The translations under genes and the position numbers were made by a program. A stretch of 64,000 nucleotides of DNA, from NCBI GenBank assembly GCA_021789215.1, contig JAJYJS010000011.1, forward strand, positions 1 through 64,000. Direction: 5' to 3'. Numbering within the stretch: the first letter of the stretch is position 1; each line of letters opens with the position of its first letter. Origin of the DNA: Nitrospirota bacterium. GTDB lineage: Bacteria > Nitrospirota > Thermodesulfovibrionia > Thermodesulfovibrionales > JdFR-88. Below the pieces are notes generated by a model. That model was not told the DNA's origin and searched no databases. It saw only the letters and a program-made list of their open reading frames with translations. Below, piece by piece: positions 40,136-47,404 of this stretch.

Positions 40136-40624
40136 TCAGCCCTCGCTTCTGACTTTATCGATAATCTCGCCTATCTTCCTGGGGCTCACCTCGCCGACGA
40201 CCTCGTCATTTACTGTTACGACCGGGGCCAGACCACAGCACCCGACGCATCCGACGGTCTCCAGGGTGAGGGCCATATCAGCGGTGGTCTCCCCCTCTTT
40301 GACCCCGAACTCCTCCTCTATCTTGCTTAGCACCTTTGCAGCGCCCCTCACATGGCAGGCCGTCCCGGTGCAGACGCATACTATGTTCCTGCCCCTTGGC
40401 TTGAAATAGAAATGCTTGTAGAAAGAGGCGGTGCTGTAAATCTCGGCAAGAGGGATGCCGAGCTTTTTCGAAAGCCCCTTCAACTTGTCCTCGGGCAGAT
40501 AATTATGCTCCTTCTGTATCTGCTGGAGGGCATGGATGAGCACCCCCCTTTTCTTCTGCTCGTCCGAGAGGACTTCGCCTATTTCCCTGTAGTGGCCGTC
40601 GACATCGAGATTTTCTATCTTCAT
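40136..40624 (-). CDS. NuoE-like [2Fe-2S] subunit
   Basis: A 162-residue thioredoxin-like ferredoxin of the NuoE/HndA family. Helical N-terminal half (L-I-H-A-L-Q-Q-I-Q-K-E-H-N-Y-L-P), then the ligands in C-T-G-T-A-C-H and C-V-G-C-C-G-L-A-P. It passes electrons with the NuoF-like protein encoded next. ATG 40624 follows GGAGG. It is the first gene of the four-gene NADH module and lies after acsC behind a hairpin at 40763-40783. Confidence 0.93.
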   Translation of the reverse strand: MKIENLDVDGHYREIGEVLSDEQKKRGVLIHALQQIQKEHNYLPEDKLKGLSKKLGIPLAEIYSTASFYKHFYFKPRGRNIVCVCTGTACHVRGAAKVLSKIEEEFGVKEGETTADMALTLETVGCVGCCGLAPVVTVNDEVVGEVSPRKIGEIIDKVRSEG

Positions 40625-40762
40625 GATACCTCCGTCTGGCTGCTTGATTACTCCTACAACTAAGCCGGAGCACAGCTCGCAGTTTTTTTTTGTATTTCCC
40701 CTGCACCGCTGCTTCCGGCTTCGCTGTCAAATACTCTTTTAAAGACCCGCGGCTTACTTTCA

Positions 40763-40783
40763 CCGGCCCTTAACAAGGGCCGG
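40763..40783 (-). terminator. Perfect 9-bp hairpin after acsC
   Basis: CCGGCCCTT and AAGGGCCGG pair perfectly around a 3-base loop, just downstream of the acsC stop. T-poor beyond, so termination may be partial. Confidence 0.6.
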
Positions 40784-40801
40784 ATGGCCGTCAAACAAAA
40801 A

Positions 40802-42142
40802 TCAGGCCCTCGCCTTGAGGAACGCCGGCAGGCCGTTGGCCTCGCGCGGGCCGACCGTTATCTTCCAGCCTTCGAGCTTGTCTTCGATGGAGCCGCTCAA
40901 AATCGCGACGTATCCGGGGATTATCAGCTCCTTTGTCTCAAGCTCTGTCTCTATTCCGCTCTCCTTTATGAACTGCGCTATCTTGGAAGCGGTGAACTTG
41001 CCCGCCGCCCATGCCGTGAGGACCGAAAGCCCCTCGCTGTCGAGGACTGCAAGCCTGCACGGCACCTTGCTGTTTTCGACCTCGCCGGAGACTATGAAGT
41101 AAGTGAGCGAGAAGTTCGTGGTGATGAGGAACGGCGACTTGGGGCCGGGCTCCCCTATCTTGTATATGTTCTGCTGGACCTGCATCGGGACCTGCGGGTC
41201 CGTGTATATGTTCTGCCTCAGCGAAAACAGCGCCAGGTTCTTCCATCTCTCCGCGCTGTTGAGCACGACTATCGAGGCGTATTTCGCAATCCCCAGCACC
41301 GCTATCAGGGATTCGAGCATGCTGTCGTCCCTTCCGGCGAAGGTGATGACTGGATAGCCCAGCGGCTTGAAATTCTTCTTTACCGCGGACCGCCTGATAT
41401 AGGTATTGTCCCTCAATATCTCTCCGGCCCTGCGCGCGCCGGAGTCTATCACCATGTCCGCGACTCCGAAGCCCTTGGCCTTTTCGGTCAGGTCGCAAAG
41501 CTCGTCAAGGCCCGTCGCGGCAATCCCCAGGGTGGCCTTGTGCGCCTTGGCCTTTCCGGCCATGGCCTCAAGGTTGTCCTTGTTCGCGCCGTAAAGGACG
41601 GCGTTTTTGCCGCTGTAATGCTTCAGCGCGGCATCGGCGGCGTCGGGACTGGTGGTCGATATAATTGCGGCAACGGCCGGGGCCTTCGTGGACGCGAGCT
41701 TCGCAAGGGCCTCAAGCTTCGCCCCGTCGCCCGAATCGTTCGAAAGAAACAGGGCGTTAATCCTCAGCTTCTGGCCGACCCTGTCTATCTCGGACGAAAG
41801 GACGTCGTCTATGACCTTCGAGGCGTCGGCCTCCGAGGCCGTGTCGCTTATCTTCACCGCTATTGCGCACGGGTTCACAAATTTCTTTTCATGCCTGAAC
41901 AGCACGGTCTCTTCGCCCATCTTTACGGCAAGTTCGCCGCTGCCAAGCACAGTGGGCCTTATCGGCGGGGCCGAAGCCTCGCCCAGCTTCTGCTTGGCCT
42001 CTTCGGAGACGTCGGGGCACTGGTCCAGCGACACCTGCCTCTGGGCAAGCTTCATGGCAAACGCAAGACAGGTCGGCTGGCCGCACTTCTTGCAGTTTGT
42101 CTTGGGCAGCATCTTGAAAATTTCAACTCCGGTAAGGGCCAT
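40802..42142 (-). CDS. acsC: Corrinoid iron-sulfur protein, large subunit
   Basis: A 446-residue CFeSP gamma subunit that carries the methyl-cobamide to ACS. The N-terminal [4Fe-4S] motif reads C-K-K-C-G-Q-P-T-C with a later cysteine (D-Q-C-P), then a TIM-barrel and a C-terminal cobamide-binding region. It follows acsD by 3 bases, as the two form a heterodimer. The N-terminal cluster is used for reductive activation of the cobamide. Confidence 0.95.
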   Translation of the reverse strand: MALTGVEIFKMLPKTNCKKCGQPTCLAFAMKLAQRQVSLDQCPDVSEEAKQKLGEASAPPIRPTVLGSGELAVKMGEETVLFRHEKKFVNPCAIAVKISDTASEADASKVIDDVLSSEIDRVGQKLRINALFLSNDSGDGAKLEALAKLASTKAPAVAAIISTTSPDAADAALKHYSGKNAVLYGANKDNLEAMAGKAKAHKATLGIAATGLDELCDLTEKAKGFGVADMVIDSGARRAGEILRDNTYIRRSAVKKNFKPLGYPVITFAGRDDSMLESLIAVLGIAKYASIVVLNSAERWKNLALFSLRQNIYTDPQVPMQVQQNIYKIGEPGPKSPFLITTNFSLTYFIVSGEVENSKVPCRLAVLDSEGLSVLTAWAAGKFTASKIAQFIKESGIETELETKELIIPGYVAILSGSIEDKLEGWKITVGPREANGLPAFLKARA

Positions 42143-42145
42143 TTT

Positions 42146-43093
42146 TTATTTCACCTCCATATCGGCAATGAACTTTTTGACGGCGCCTATCGCTTCAGGG
42201 TGCCTCATTATGAGGATGTCCGCACCGGCTATGAGGAAGGATGTGGCTGTAACCGCCTCCCACTCTATGCCCCTTTCCCTGAGGCTGCCCCATGCGGGCA
42301 GGTCTGCTTCGGCTGCCTGCGTCTCCTTGACCTTCCAGACGAACATCCCTACATCCGCAAGCATGGGGGCCTGCAAAGTGGCGTCGTTCTGGGCCAGGGC
42401 CGCAAGCTTTATGCGCTCCATGACCGAATACGTGTATTCGAGCCCGTAGCTCAGGGCGGAGCTCATCGGGTCGGTCACAAGCTTCTCCTTGTCGAAGCCC
42501 ATCTGGCCGATAAGGATGTTGAGCTGCTTGGAGAGGTTTATGTCAAGCTCCGACATGGCTATGAGCTTCAAGTCGTTTGCCATCGCCGCAGCCACGATCG
42601 TCTTGTAGTTGGACTCCTGCGCCTTGCCAAGCAGGGAGTTTGTGCCCTTGAGCACCTCGGCCACCTTTACCAGCACGGCGGCGTCTTTTTCAGCGTGGTT
42701 TGAGCCAAGCACTATAAGCGGCACATTGATCGCCGCGAGCACTTTCCTGACCGTCTCGGCGGCCTGGTCGGCCGAGGCGTCGCCCCTGTCCGGGTGCGTG
42801 CTGACAAGCCTCAGGGCTATTATTCCGGCCCCCAGGCTGTCCTGGCAGTATTTCGCCCATGTCACCGGGCCGGACGATACGTTTTTAAAAACCTCCGCAA
42901 CCGTTTCCGGCCAGTCGTCCGGAGGCATGTCCTGCACCTCGAACGCCACGGCAGGCTCCCTCGGGACGCTGCCCTCGAAGGCGTGAAATGCAAGGACATT
43001 TTCTCCGCCTACCGTTACCGCTTTATCTCCCTGACCGATCGTCAGTTCGAAGGTTTTACCGTTATAGCTCTCTTTTGGCGGTGTAAATGGCAT
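42146..43093 (-). CDS. acsD: Corrinoid iron-sulfur protein, small subunit
   Basis: A 315-residue CFeSP delta subunit, a TIM-barrel partner of AcsC. Features include G-D-K-A-V-T-V-G-G near the N-terminus and N-Y-K-T-I-V-A-A-A and D-P-M-S-S-A-L-G/S-Y in the core, typical of the family. Between acsE and acsC in the usual methyl-branch order. Start ATG 43093. Confidence 0.95.
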   Translation of the reverse strand: MPFTPPKESYNGKTFELTIGQGDKAVTVGGENVLAFHAFEGSVPREPAVAFEVQDMPPDDWPETVAEVFKNVSSGPVTWAKYCQDSLGAGIIALRLVSTHPDRGDASADQAAETVRKVLAAINVPLIVLGSNHAEKDAAVLVKVAEVLKGTNSLLGKAQESNYKTIVAAAMANDLKLIAMSELDINLSKQLNILIGQMGFDKEKLVTDPMSSALSYGLEYTYSVMERIKLAALAQNDATLQAPMLADVGMFVWKVKETQAAEADLPAWGSLRERGIEWEAVTATSFLIAGADILIMRHPEAIGAVKKFIADMEVK

Positions 43094-43107
43094 TTTTTTC
43101 GAGCCTC

Positions 43108-43890
43108 CTACATTTCGAGATATGAGTGGGCGTAAAGGGTCTTGCCCGTTATTACGTCGATGGTCTTGGAGACCTCGCCTATTTCATGGGAATCGGCAAT
43201 TGCGGCCGTCAGCCCGTTGTACATCAGGAGCGCGGCATAGTACTTGTTCAGGATGGGCCTCACGTGCTTGGGACACCCGTTCGATATATTGCTCAGGCCT
43301 ACGACCGTCTTCATCGGCGGGTCGTTGAGCTCCTGGAACATCTTTATCGCCCTTATCACATGCATCGCGTGGTCCTGCGATGTGGCTATCTGGAGGACCA
43401 GCGGGTCCAGGTAGATGTCCTCAAGCGGCACGCCGTATTCCATCGCCCTTGCCATTATCTCGGCTGCAATCGCGCACCTTTCCTCGGCGTCGGCCGGGAG
43501 CCCTCCCTTGCCCACCGTAAGCCCTATTATCTGGCTATTGTACTTGGCGGCAAGCTCCAGCATCGGAAACCTCTCAGGATCGTTGGATGTGGAGTTGATA
43601 AGCGGCCTTCCCCATTCGTTGTTGTGGACCTTGAGGCCCGCCTCAATCGCCTTGTAATTGGTGGTGTCAAGGCACACAGGGGCGGACACAACCTCCTGGA
43701 TGGTAGTTACCATCCACTCCATCAGTTCCTCCCCGCCGTCCTCAGCGGGGCCGATATTGGCATCTATCATCCTGGAGCCTTCGTCCCATTGCCTTTTGGC
43801 AATCTCCTGTATGGGACCCTTATCTTTCTTGAGCATCGCCTCCCGGACCCTTTTGGCTATGATGCTCAGCTTTTCACCAATGATTAGCAT
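43108..43890 (-). CDS. acsE: Methyl-tetrahydrofolate: corrinoid protein methyltransferase
   Basis: A 260-residue pterin-binding TIM barrel that passes the methyl group from methyl-THF to the corrinoid protein. Residues typical of AcsE/MeTr include M-L-I-I-G-E-K-L at the start, the I-D-A-N-I-G strand, the C-L-D-T-T-N and N-S-T-S-N-D core and G-L-S-N-I-S-N-G. AAGGAG lies 8 bases before ATG 43890. It is the first gene of the carbon-fixation block and is divergent from the deacetylase. Confidence 0.95.
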   Translation of the reverse strand: MLIIGEKLSIIAKRVREAMLKKDKGPIQEIAKRQWDEGSRMIDANIGPAEDGGEELMEWMVTTIQEVVSAPVCLDTTNYKAIEAGLKVHNNEWGRPLINSTSNDPERFPMLELAAKYNSQIIGLTVGKGGLPADAEERCAIAAEIMARAMEYGVPLEDIYLDPLVLQIATSQDHAMHVIRAIKMFQELNDPPMKTVVGLSNISNGCPKHVRPILNKYYAALLMYNGLTAAIADSHEIGEVSKTIDVITGKTLYAHSYLEM

Positions 43891-44019: not shown

Positions 44020-44048
44020 TTGAATAAAAAAGAATTTCGTGATAGTTT
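44020..44048 (+). promoter_or_regulatory. Candidate promoter of the deacetylase gene
   Basis: TTGAAT (44020-44025) and TAGTTT (44043-44048) with a 17-base spacer and a TG-n extension before the -10. The predicted start falls on or beside ATG 44056, implying a leaderless mRNA. The wider region 43891-44049 is very AT-rich and must also hold the acsE promoter. Confidence 0.4.
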
Positions 44049-44055
44049 AATGAAA

Positions 44056-44979
44056 ATGAAGCGTGTCGGGTTTATTTACGATGACGTCTTTCTCAAGCAT
44101 GAAACCCCGCTATGGCACCCCGAATCCAAGGAACGTCTGGTGGTTGTAACGGAGGCCGTCCGCGGCTCCGGGCTGGCAGACAAGCTTGTCCGCGAAAAAC
44201 CCGACCTGGCGGGGCCTGATGACATAGCCATGGTGCATGACCGCGAGTATGTCGAGAAAATGGCCCATTTCGTGGGCTACTACGACCCCGACACTTACGT
44301 CTCAAGCGATTCCTACAGGGCGGCCCTTTACGCCGCGGGGGCTGTAATGAAGGCGGTGCGCATGATAAAGGAAGGCAGGATAGAAAGGGCCTTCTGCGCC
44401 GTGCGCCCGCCCGGGCACCATGCCGAGCGCGACAGGGCCATGGGTTTTTGCATATTCAACAACGTGGCGATAGGGGCCAGGACGGCGCAGAAACTAGGGT
44501 TCAAAAAGGTCTTCATCGCGGACTTCGACGTGCACCACGGCAACGGCACCCAGCAGGCGTTTTACGAAGACCCCGGCGTCTTCTATTTCAGCACCCACCA
44601 GTACCCCTTCTACCCCGGCACCGGCTCCGAAGCCGAAAGAGGGGCCGGAGACGGCGAGGGGGCCACCTATAATGTGCCGATGGCGTCCGGTTCCGGCGTG
44701 AAGCAATACCTGAGGATTTATCAGGACATACTCCCTCCGGTGATGCAGCGTTTCGGCCCTGACATTGTCCTCGTTTCAGCGGGCTACGATATATACACGG
44801 GAGACCCGCTTGCGGCAATAAATGTGTCGAAGGAAGGCATAAGGGCCATGGTTGACGGCATACTCTCCGGGGCAGGGGACGCGCCCTCGGTATTCGTGCT
44901 TGAAGGCGGTTACGACCTTGAAGCCCTGGGCGAGCTGGTAAAAATCACGGTTGAGGAACTGCTCAACTATTCCTTGTAA
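44056..44979 (+). CDS. AcuC/HDAC-family deacetylase
   Basis: A 307-residue zinc-dependent deacetylase of the histone-deacetylase superfamily. Motifs: R-P-P-G-H-H-A-E, D-F-D-V-H-H-G-N-G-T-Q (zinc Asp and His), S-A-G-Y-D-I-Y-T-G-D-P (third zinc ligand) and the C-terminal E-G-G-Y-D. Bacterial members remove acetyl groups from acetyl-CoA synthetase or act on small acetylated amines. Start could be ATG 44050 or 44056; 44056 fits homologues and the candidate promoter. It diverges from acsE and its 3' end overlaps the next gene tail to tail by 13 bases. Confidence 0.85.
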   Translation: MKRVGFIYDDVFLKHETPLWHPESKERLVVVTEAVRGSGLADKLVREKPDLAGPDDIAMVHDREYVEKMAHFVGYYDPDTYVSSDSYRAALYAAGAVMKAVRMIKEGRIERAFCAVRPPGHHAERDRAMGFCIFNNVAIGARTAQKLGFKKVFIADFDVHHGNGTQQAFYEDPGVFYFSTHQYPFYPGTGSEAERGAGDGEGATYNVPMASGSGVKQYLRIYQDILPPVMQRFGPDIVLVSAGYDIYTGDPLAAINVSKEGIRAMVDGILSGAGDAPSVFVLEGGYDLEALGELVKITVEELLNYSL

Positions 44980-46349
44980 AAAAAGGCGCTGTAGCCCAGC
45001 TTCCTGAGTTTTATTGCAAGCACCCTTGCTTCTTCAGGCTTGCTGAATTTCCCCGCTAAAACCCTGTATTCCGTCTTGCCGTTTTTCTTTGCCGCCTCCG
45101 TAAATGCCTTAACCCCCCTGGCTTTGAGCTTCTTTACCAGCTTTTCCGCATTGCCTTTGGCAGAGAAAATCCCGACCTGAACGGAACTGAACTTGCCGTG
45201 CCTGGAAGACGCCTTGGCCAAATGTCCCGCCTGCCCGTTCTTTTTGACCGGCCGGGCCTCTTCGCCCTTTGATGCAACGGTCTTTTGAGGTGGGGGCGCC
45301 TTTGGAGCGCTAAGAGCAGGGGCCGGTCCCGCCGGGGCGGCGGCAGCCTGCTTCATGGCAGACACCGGCTGTTCCGGAGCGGATACGGGCTGGCCCGCAG
45401 GCTGAACAGGCGCTGGCTGGGCCGGAGCCGTGCCCTGCGCCTGCACGTCTGCCGCAGGCTGGTTGCTTACCGGAGGCGGGGTATCCTGGACTATTACCGG
45501 AGCGTTCTCAACGTCTTTTGCCTGGATGGTCTCATTATTGGCCGTGTTCCCGCGTCCATGCGACATGAACATGAAAACCCCGAATGCGGCGGCAACACCC
45601 AGAAAAAGCAGGCCGGCTATGGCTGCTACTTTTTTGCCGCCCGATTTCTTCTTTTTCCCGTAAAAAAAACTCTGCCTCAGGCCGGACTGCTCTTCCCCAT
45701 CTCTTTCAGGCATCTCTTCACTCTCCTCTCCTGATAAAACAGCCGTCTCCCCTGCGGGAGGGAAAACCTCCGTGATGTTTTTACCGCCGCTTTCCTCTCC
45801 CCGCAAATTCCCGTCTTCATCCGGGGGTCCGTTTTCAGCCAGACCGGGATTTTTTGCCTCCCCGGCCGTTTCCGCCTCGGCTGCCGGGTTTTTTTCCAGG
45901 CCTCCCGTATTATCAGCCGCCTGCCCCGGCAATGAAACAGGCCTTGCGGGGGCAGGAGAAAAAACCTCTTCGTGCTCCGGTATGTCCTCGACGGAAGCCT
46001 TGCACTTGGAAACGAGTTCGAAGATATCCACCGGTTTCAGGATGAAATTCACGATCCCGTATTTTTCGCGGTATCTCGGGTCGTATTCTTTTTCCCCCTC
46101 CATAAGCATGAGGATTGGCATGTTCCTGGCCTGCTCCAGCGAGCGCAGCCGGTTTATGAACTCAAGCCCGCCGGCCCCTTTTACCATCAGGTTAAGGATG
46201 ATGAGCGCGGGCCTCACCCTTTTTGCCATGGTAAGCGCCACGTCGGCGCTGGAAGCGGCATATACAAAATATCCCTCGGTCTCAAGCGCCGTGGATATCG
46301 TCCTTGTCGCCTCGTAATCCCCGTCTATTACCAGTATGCTTTTAGCCAT
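44967..46349 (-). CDS. Degenerate receiver domain - membrane helix - SPOR protein
   Basis: A 460-residue protein. Residues 1-120 form a CheY-like receiver with the acidic pair Asp9/Asp11 and Lys105, but the phospho-acceptor position is Asn53 (A-L-I-I-L-N-L). An acidic, low-complexity linker with many E/P/G residues follows, then K-K-K-S-G-G-K-K, one membrane helix near 245-265, a Pro/Ala/Gln-rich periplasmic stretch, and a SPOR domain (about 385-460) that binds denuded peptidoglycan. It may position the receiver at the septum. Unusual fusion; no name recognised. Confidence 0.82.
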   Translation of the reverse strand: MAKSILVIDGDYEATRTISTALETEGYFVYAASSADVALTMAKRVRPALIILNLMVKGAGGLEFINRLRSLEQARNMPILMLMEGEKEYDPRYREKYGIVNFILKPVDIFELVSKCKASVEDIPEHEEVFSPAPARPVSLPGQAADNTGGLEKNPAAEAETAGEAKNPGLAENGPPDEDGNLRGEESGGKNITEVFPPAGETAVLSGEESEEMPERDGEEQSGLRQSFFYGKKKKSGGKKVAAIAGLLFLGVAAAFGVFMFMSHGRGNTANNETIQAKDVENAPVIVQDTPPPVSNQPAADVQAQGTAPAQPAPVQPAGQPVSAPEQPVSAMKQAAAAPAGPAPALSAPKAPPPQKTVASKGEEARPVKKNGQAGHLAKASSRHGKFSSVQVGIFSAKGNAEKLVKKLKARGVKAFTEAAKKNGKTEYRVLAGKFSKPEEARVLAIKLRKLGYSAFFYKE

Positions 46350-46444: not shown

Positions 46445-47404
46445 TCAAGGACCCTGCCCGGAAGAAAACGCCTCCGTCAGGGCCGCGGCCAGCAGCGGGA
46501 ACATTATCTCGTGATGCCCTGTAAGCGCATAGGATGCCCCGCCCTTCATCGTGGGCCTCCTGAGGACGTTTTCCCTGGGCCTGTAGTGCTGTATGAAATC
46601 CATGTTCACGGTGGTTATCTTCTCGACCTTATGGCCCAGGTTTCTGGCCACGGTCAGCGCCTTCAGAAAGACCTCCGGAAGGACGACAGAAGAGCCCAGG
46701 TTTATGTACACGCCGCCCTCCAGCCCGGCAAGCACCGTGGCAAACAGCCTGAAGTCCCTGTGGCTTGCCTCACCTATCGCGCCCCCGTCAGCGGAAGGGT
46801 GCATGTGTATGATGTCTGCGCCTATCGTCACGTGGACCGTCGCGGGAATGCCCAGCCTGTACGCCTCGCCGAAGATGCTGGAGGATTTGTATCTGAACCT
46901 GCTTCCGCTTATGAACCTGCCTATGGAGGCGCCAAGCCCAAGGCCGTCAGCCGCGCCCTTTTTTATGGCCCGGTTCAGGAACAGGCCCGTCTCCCTTGCC
47001 ATGCCGAAGGTGCCCTTGCAAAGCTCCTCCGCCACATCCTCGGAGGTCTGCCCTATGTAGGAAAGCTCGAAATCGTGGATTATGCTCGCCCCGTTTGAAG
47101 CAAAGGCAGTTATAACGCCCCGCCTCATGAGCCCGGCGATTACCGGGGAAAGCCCCACCTTTATGGGATGGGCGCCCATCCCGAGCACTACCGGCCTGCC
47201 GTTTTTTCTGGCCTCCACGATGGCGCTTACGACGCTTTTAAGGTCTTTTGCGGCGAGGATGCCTGGCAGGCCCGCCCAAAAATCGGAGAAAGACTTGCCT
47301 GCCTCAAACGGCCTTCCAAGCCACCCCGCCTCCACCTTCGATTTCCTGCCCCTGAGGGGGACTGTTTTTATCTTTTTCAGGTCAAGAGGTTTTTGGGGTT
47401 TCAT
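46445..47404 (-). CDS. Conserved protein of unknown function (alpha/beta, possible deoxyhypusine-synthase-like fold)
   Basis: A 319-residue soluble protein I do not recognise. Visible stretches are V-V-L-G-M-G-A-H-P-I-K-V-G-L-S-P-V, F-A-S-N-G-A-S-I-I-H-D-F-E, a G-A-D-I-I-H-M-H-P segment near residue 200, Y-I-N-L-G-S-S-V-V, and a G-G-A-S-Y-A-L-T-G-H-H-E near the end. The pattern of glycine-rich turns after strands suggests a Rossmann-like nucleotide-binding fold, as in deoxyhypusine synthase relatives; that is inference. It starts 7 bases after an extended -10 box, so its mRNA may be leaderless. It stands alone between the receiver-SPOR gene and rseC. Confidence 0.6.
   Translation of the reverse strand: MKPQKPLDLKKIKTVPLRGRKSKVEAGWLGRPFEAGKSFSDFWAGLPGILAAKDLKSVVSAIVEARKNGRPVVLGMGAHPIKVGLSPVIAGLMRRGVITAFASNGASIIHDFELSYIGQTSEDVAEELCKGTFGMARETGLFLNRAIKKGAADGLGLGASIGRFISGSRFRYKSSSIFGEAYRLGIPATVHVTIGADIIHMHPSADGGAIGEASHRDFRLFATVLAGLEGGVYINLGSSVVLPEVFLKALTVARNLGHKVEKITTVNMDFIQHYRPRENVLRRPTMKGGASYALTGHHEIMFPLLAAALTEAFSSGQGP

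Follow-up and report, generated by a model that had tools for sequence, protein, structure and literature searches.

A pseudo-receiver joined through a membrane helix to a SPOR domain in Nitrospirota, and its linkage to amidase and MamK-family actin genes in relatives

Proteins of the FtsN/DedD/DamX type have a cytoplasmic N-terminus, a single membrane helix, a long periplasmic part, and a C-terminal SPOR domain. A SPOR domain does not always imply a role in division. For FtsN, the cytoplasmic part was described to bind FtsA, an actin relative, and the SPOR domain to bind denuded glycan (PMC9426451). The residues of RlpA that contact denuded glycan were given as Gln270, Phe274, and an arginine patch (PMC6895207). 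RgsS of Sinorhizobium meliloti is an FtsN-like SPOR protein, the position of which depends on an amidase in the RgsS/AmiC system, and the abstract of that report mentions neither a receiver domain nor MamK (PMC7822825).

On the cytoplasmic side, two other systems are relevant. MamK is the actin of magnetosomes, and the adaptors MamJ, McaA, and McaB are described to tie it to the membrane structure. FrzS of Myxococcus xanthus is a soluble polar protein and is not known to have a SPOR domain, unlike the protein analyzed here. According to a review, the pseudo-receiver of FrzS is a docking domain that works without phosphorylation (PMC12632262). The same review recognizes pseudo-receivers as receivers without key phosphotransfer residues, gives the share of aspartate-less receivers as about 4% of all receivers, and describes the functions of bacterial pseudo-receivers as little known (PMC12632262).

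The DNA analyzed here (the window, 64,000 nt) is from a Nitrospirota genome and encodes a protein of 460 aa that combines a receiver-like domain with a SPOR domain. The features of the locus are as follows:

44967..46349, minus strand: gene for the pseudo-receiver/SPOR protein, 460 aa (ORF with ATG start; order of the parts the same in 43 homologues)
46005..46337, minus strand: pseudo-receiver domain, residues 5-115 (PF00072 Response_reg, AlphaFold2, Foldseek)
46191..46193, minus strand: codon of Asn53 at the phospho-acceptor position, CheY Asp57 (alignment with CheY and 43 homologues)
45630..46004, minus strand: cytoplasmic linker, residues 116-240, with a Lys-rich end next to the membrane helix (mostly low pLDDT; sequence)
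45561..45629, minus strand: single transmembrane helix, residues 241-263 (AlphaFold2 helix; hydropathy 2.45 over 19 residues)
45186..45560, minus strand: Pro/Ala-rich periplasmic linker, residues 264-388 (low pLDDT; sequence)
44976..45185, minus strand: SPOR domain, residues 389-458, with the ligand residues Gln391, Phe395, and Arg429 (PF05036)
44020..44979, plus strand: convergent histone-deacetylase-family gene (PF00850, 305.8 bits; synteny anchor shared with the outgroup genome G196)
46445..47404, minus strand: upstream GSU2086-family gene (NF052581, 437.7 bits; synteny)

The Pfam scan assigned residues 5-115 to Response_reg (51.1 bits, cut-off 30.2) and residues 389-458 to SPOR (56.5 bits, cut-off 21). 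In the AlphaFold2 model, which was calculated from an input of 30 sequences, the pLDDT was mostly above 90 for the blocks of the receiver, 91-98 for the blocks of the SPOR domain, and low for the linkers. The model thus bears out a membrane helix between the two domains and a C-terminal SPOR fold, both of which had been proposed in an earlier note on this DNA. The receiver part shows the (beta-alpha)5 fold, and the best match among solved structures in Foldseek was 1mvo with a TM-score of 0.91 by target length. It resembles ordinary receivers and also the FrzS pseudo-receiver (E 2.4e-8, TM-score 0.82 by target length). By sequence, the best match among the solved structures was the PF00072 receiver of PleD (E 4e-15), but PleD is a soluble diguanylate cyclase and this receiver is not part of a membrane-bound SPOR protein.

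The Lys-rich stretch in front of the helix fits the positive-inside rule and suggests a cytoplasmic N-terminus, and we infer a bitopic topology. A bitopic layout with a C-terminal SPOR domain (Pfam, AlphaFold2) is also that of FtsN. Different from FtsN, DedD, and DamX, however, the part in front of the helix is not a short tail, which in FtsN binds FtsA, but a folded pseudo-receiver followed by a linker, each about 120 aa long. Just beyond the membrane helix (window 45495-45533, residues about 273-285), an ENxPVIV motif was seen that is common to most members from f1, the family of the window genome.

Alignment with CheY and the homologues assigned the five phosphotransfer positions of the window receiver to Asp9, Gly10, Asn53, Met83, and Lys105; three of the five are lost. 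The earlier note had read Asn at the acceptor position and a retained Lys, and both readings were confirmed. Its statement that the acidic pair is kept was wrong, since the pair reads Asp9-Gly10, and the conserved Thr position is likewise lost (Met83). Asp11 follows Gly10 but aligns with CheY Phe14. With a Pfam receiver match and key phosphotransfer residues missing, the domain fits the definition of a pseudo-receiver, and it does not have the residues of a functional phospho-receiver (two acidic residues, acceptor Asp, Thr/Ser, and Lys).

The acceptor position is occupied by Asn in 24 of the 43 homologues, by Lys in 8, by Asp in 5, by Ser in 4, and by Glu in 2. Absence of Asp from 38 of the 43 members, compared to about 4% aspartate-less receivers in the published survey (PMC12632262), argues against a loss by chance. 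The five homologues with Asp all miss one or more of the other catalytic residues, and none of the 43 has the complete set of five, with no data for the row of G043 at the acidic pair. The protein of G196 comes closest to a full set, with the second acidic residue alone replaced. On the family tree, Asp at the acceptor position requires at least five changes. Since Asp is present in only 5 of 43 and the full set in none, loss of phosphorylation is, as judged from the sequences, a family-wide trait. Homologues with Asp, which the earlier note would have counted against its reading, thus do exist in a weak sense, but the phosphorylation-independence suggested by the note is strongly supported, as these five also lack the full set.

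In the SPOR domain the picture is the opposite. Gln391 (profile position 8) is kept in 42 of 43 members and Phe395 (profile position 12) in all 43, and the position of Arg429 is R or K in 41 of 43. The equivalence of these residues to the RlpA contacts, including R309, was read by eye and not from a computed alignment. Since the ligand residues are kept and the phosphotransfer set is lost, the outer half of the protein looks functional, and the inner half looks to be without catalysis. The SPOR domain would bind denuded glycan and would thereby be placed at the septum. The proposed link to septal, that is amidase-processed, peptidoglycan is supported by the SPOR domain, which is intact and keeps its ligand residues, and by an amidase gene that is linked in relatives (see below). 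In several f1 relatives (L006, L005, L007, L012, L010, and L009) the periplasmic linker contains a GYWALLxxEE-like motif (alignment columns near 685-705), which is absent from the window protein and presumably recalls the aromatic essential segment of FtsN.

The search for this architecture resulted in 43 proteins from 42 Nitrospirota genomes, all with receiver and SPOR domain in the same order and all with a hydrophobic segment (mean hydropathy ≥2.1), which rules out an oddity of a single genome. The proteins were collected, not exhaustively, from 61 near genomes, 61 genomes of the order, and 198 genomes of the phylum, together with neighborhood DNA. The gene was present in 35 of the 61 order genomes and absent from 26, some of which may have assembly gaps. 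In the draw of 198 genomes, matches better than 1e-38 were seen in 29 of 60 genomes of the order and, among 8 further genomes of the class, only in G196; the remaining 130 genomes had none. Ten named records are MAGs labeled 'Nitrospirae bacterium'. Collection matches outside the Nitrospirota were not accepted as members: of the 23 loci in that collection search, 13 (Pseudomonas, Pantoea, Rhodospirillaceae, Bacteriovorax) have a receiver and no SPOR match in the DNA examined. Single-protein scans of the collection revealed no relative. Literature searches for SPOR with receiver or response regulator found nothing on the topic, and those for MamK with SPOR or with amidase found no paper, in a literature set with few subscription journals. 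The architecture of pseudo-receiver, membrane helix, and SPOR domain is real, conserved, and apparently undescribed. In genome G002, two such genes lie in tandem (L085:7760-10278, plus strand) and encode its sole SPOR proteins.

A comparison of 36 loci revealed that in distant families two genes lie directly upstream on the same strand, which encode an amidase and a MamK-family actin. The amidase is of the Amidase_3 type with an N-terminal membrane helix (151-155 bits, Pfam). All three operon actins that were scanned exceeded the cut-off of 400 for MamK (NF040964; 415.6, 433.9, and 435.1 bits), and the nearest solved structures carry the name 'Actin-like ATPase'. The operon actin is thus in the same NCBI family as the MamK of magnetosomes, but unlike in the magnetosome system, its operon neighbors are predicted to act on peptidoglycan. 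None of the magnetosome models matched among the 10 neighbor proteins of the three loci scanned.

A close MamK relative (E < 1e-150) was found in 16 of the 61 order genomes, all of them among the 35 with the pseudo-receiver/SPOR gene, and in 0 of the 26 without it. The operon amidase (E < 1e-90) is present in the same 16 genomes and abuts MamK in each. Eleven of the 16, as well as the outgroup G196, have the pseudo-receiver/SPOR gene directly downstream of this pair, so that the complete operon is found in 12 genomes from seven families (f1, f2, f4, f6, f8, f13, f16). In G015, G027, G034, and G052 the pair is located elsewhere. In G062 the operon may be split by the assembly, since both the piece with the pair and the piece with the pseudo-receiver/SPOR gene end near contig edges. 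Seven further order genomes, all with the pseudo-receiver/SPOR gene, have a more distant MamK (about 46% identity), but in the phylum draw this distant type is also present in G159 and G071, which both lack the pseudo-receiver/SPOR gene. The strict association is therefore limited to the close MamK type. Of the 35 order genomes with the pseudo-receiver/SPOR gene, 19 have no close MamK. In raw counts, the receiver Lys seemed to be kept in step with MamK (14/17 versus 8/26), but the six independent pairs on the tree gave p = 1. MamK thus cannot be the sole client. Gene linkage among related genomes may also be inherited rather than functional.

The operon amidase contains a block, AILRGVYEDN, in front of its membrane helix with a mean entropy of 0.85 bits, compared to 1.7-2.4 bits for neighboring blocks and about 2 bits for helix and linker (16 operon sequences, G027 left out). 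Since this conserved peptide lies before the helix of a periplasmic enzyme, it suggests a cytoplasmic partner, and MamK would be the obvious candidate.

Some further neighbors were observed in individual genomes. In G015, a receiver-PilZ protein (L161:5033-5788, minus strand; Pfam Response_reg and PilZ) is encoded directly after the amidase-MamK pair; by eye its acceptor position is Glu, and it is possibly another pseudo-receiver partner of MamK. At the f13 loci L104, L106, and L108 (G034, G052, and G043) the next gene downstream is of the Mur-ligase family, a link to peptidoglycan (L104 by Pfam scan, L106 and L108 by likeness). At L105 (G063) the gene is a few genes away from an apparent mreBCD-PBP2 cluster, as seen by eye.

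At the window locus, the amidase-MamK pair is missing between the GSU2086 gene and the pseudo-receiver/SPOR gene, as in other f1 genomes. G003 carries, in this order, the GSU2086 gene, amidase, MamK, pseudo-receiver/SPOR gene, and convergent histone-deacetylase gene, and in the outgroup G196 amidase, MamK, pseudo-receiver/SPOR gene, and deacetylase gene follow each other. On the tree, the 12 other f1 rows form the sister group of G003 (support 97/83). The simplest account is therefore that the pair was lost once, after G003 had branched off. Beyond the deacetylase gene, positions 40136-43890 appear by eye to hold a corrinoid/CO-dehydrogenase methyl-branch cluster and NADH-dehydrogenase-like genes.

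We propose that the protein is a phosphorylation-independent transmembrane adaptor between amidase-trimmed (septal) peptidoglycan outside and a cytoskeletal client inside, ancestrally a MamK-like actin, and we give this reading a probability of about 45%. The SPOR domain would bind amidase-stripped glycan strands, the septal form of peptidoglycan, outside the inner membrane, and the receiver fold, unable to take phosphate, would offer a cytoskeletal protein a fixed place to dock inside. FtsN provides the precedent, since its cytoplasmic part contacts FtsA, an actin relative (PMC9426451); here a pseudo-receiver would stand in for the tail, and many relatives carry a MamK actin gene beside it. 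The ancestral gene set would have comprised amidase, MamK-family actin, and adaptor. The bitopic amidase would make the denuded glycan that the bitopic adaptor binds, with the actin-like filament located between the two at the cytoplasmic face. In the window lineage the amidase and actin genes would have been lost from the locus, and the adaptor would have stayed as the only SPOR protein found. There it would most likely do a job of the FtsN/DedD type, and its client would probably be FtsA or MreB, both of which are encoded. The main idea of the earlier note, a phosphorylation-independent link to division, stands with corrections; the operon of the relatives raises its interest and changes the likely role of the cytoplasmic domain. 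A more specific version, which we regard as possible but rather unlikely, has a MamK filament that holds both the amidase, by its conserved peptide, and the pseudo-receiver/SPOR protein. The position of the filament and the cutting of the wall would then reinforce each other, and the window protein would be a survivor that was re-used as the only SPOR protein of its lineage.

The inventory of SPOR and cytoskeletal proteins bears on the role in the window genome. The pseudo-receiver/SPOR protein is the only SPOR match there and in two other f1 genomes, G005 and G008; the window genome is 89% complete, and absences from it lean on G005 (100%) and G008 (97%). The window genome encodes MreB, FtsA, a PilM-sized FtsA-like match, and two amidases (AmiC-like, 442 aa; 292 aa), and by eye neither amidase has a peptide of the AILRGVYEDN type. 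No MamK was found in the window genome. The search for a short bitopic SPOR protein gave none in six of the seven f1 genomes (G000, which is the window genome, G001, G002, G004, G005, and G008); in the seventh, G003, only part of the five SPOR matches was inspected. In 6 of 6 order genomes outside f1 (G012, G018, G019, G022, G024, and G034) an RlpA-type and a short bitopic SPOR protein were seen. Ten SPOR proteins of G001, G004, G012, G018, G019, and G022 were checked by Pfam, the others by eye. Because the short bitopic protein was not found in six f1 genomes, an FtsN/DedD-like duty is likely in the family of the window.

These data would also fit a plain analogue of FtsN, DedD, or DamX, a divisome activator in which the pseudo-receiver replaces the FtsA-binding tail and the MamK operon is incidental. 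This is supported by the sole SPOR proteins of the three genomes, by the two of G002, which are both of this type, by the missing short bitopic protein in f1, and by the presence of FtsA. We nevertheless consider this reading rather unlikely. In other families an RlpA-type protein and the ordinary bitopic SPOR protein occur alongside it, which is no simple replacement, and the linkage to amidase and MamK in seven families, a difference from FtsN, DedD, and DamX, is left unexplained.

A quite improbable explanation is a signaling decoy or sensor, in which the partner of the pseudo-receiver would be a histidine kinase or a true receiver, and the SPOR domain would couple this interaction to the state of the cell wall. 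An action of pseudo-receivers on partner two-component proteins has been proposed (PMC12632262), and the receiver-PilZ gene of G015 lies right after MamK, but no kinase or response regulator stood out by eye in the neighbor clusters of at least three genomes from 36 neighborhoods. Least probable is a polar landmark, with the SPOR domain as a mark of old septa, which are the cell poles, and the pseudo-receiver as a recruiter of pili or other polar machinery: the likeness to the docking domain of FrzS in sequence and fold, the PilM-sized match in the window genome, and the SPOR-amidase polarity known for RgsS (PMC7822825) agree with it, but FrzS is only one among many equally good receiver matches and no pilus gene was seen by eye among the conserved neighbors in 36 neighborhoods.

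With the adaptor reading preferred, the family gives a pseudo-receiver a clear address, a transmembrane fusion to a peptidoglycan-binding domain, with actin and amidase co-encoded in many relatives. If these contacts exist, MamK-type actins would act in cell-wall remodeling or division outside magnetosomes, and the adaptor would represent, next to FtsN-FtsA, a second way to link an actin-family protein with denuded septal glycan.
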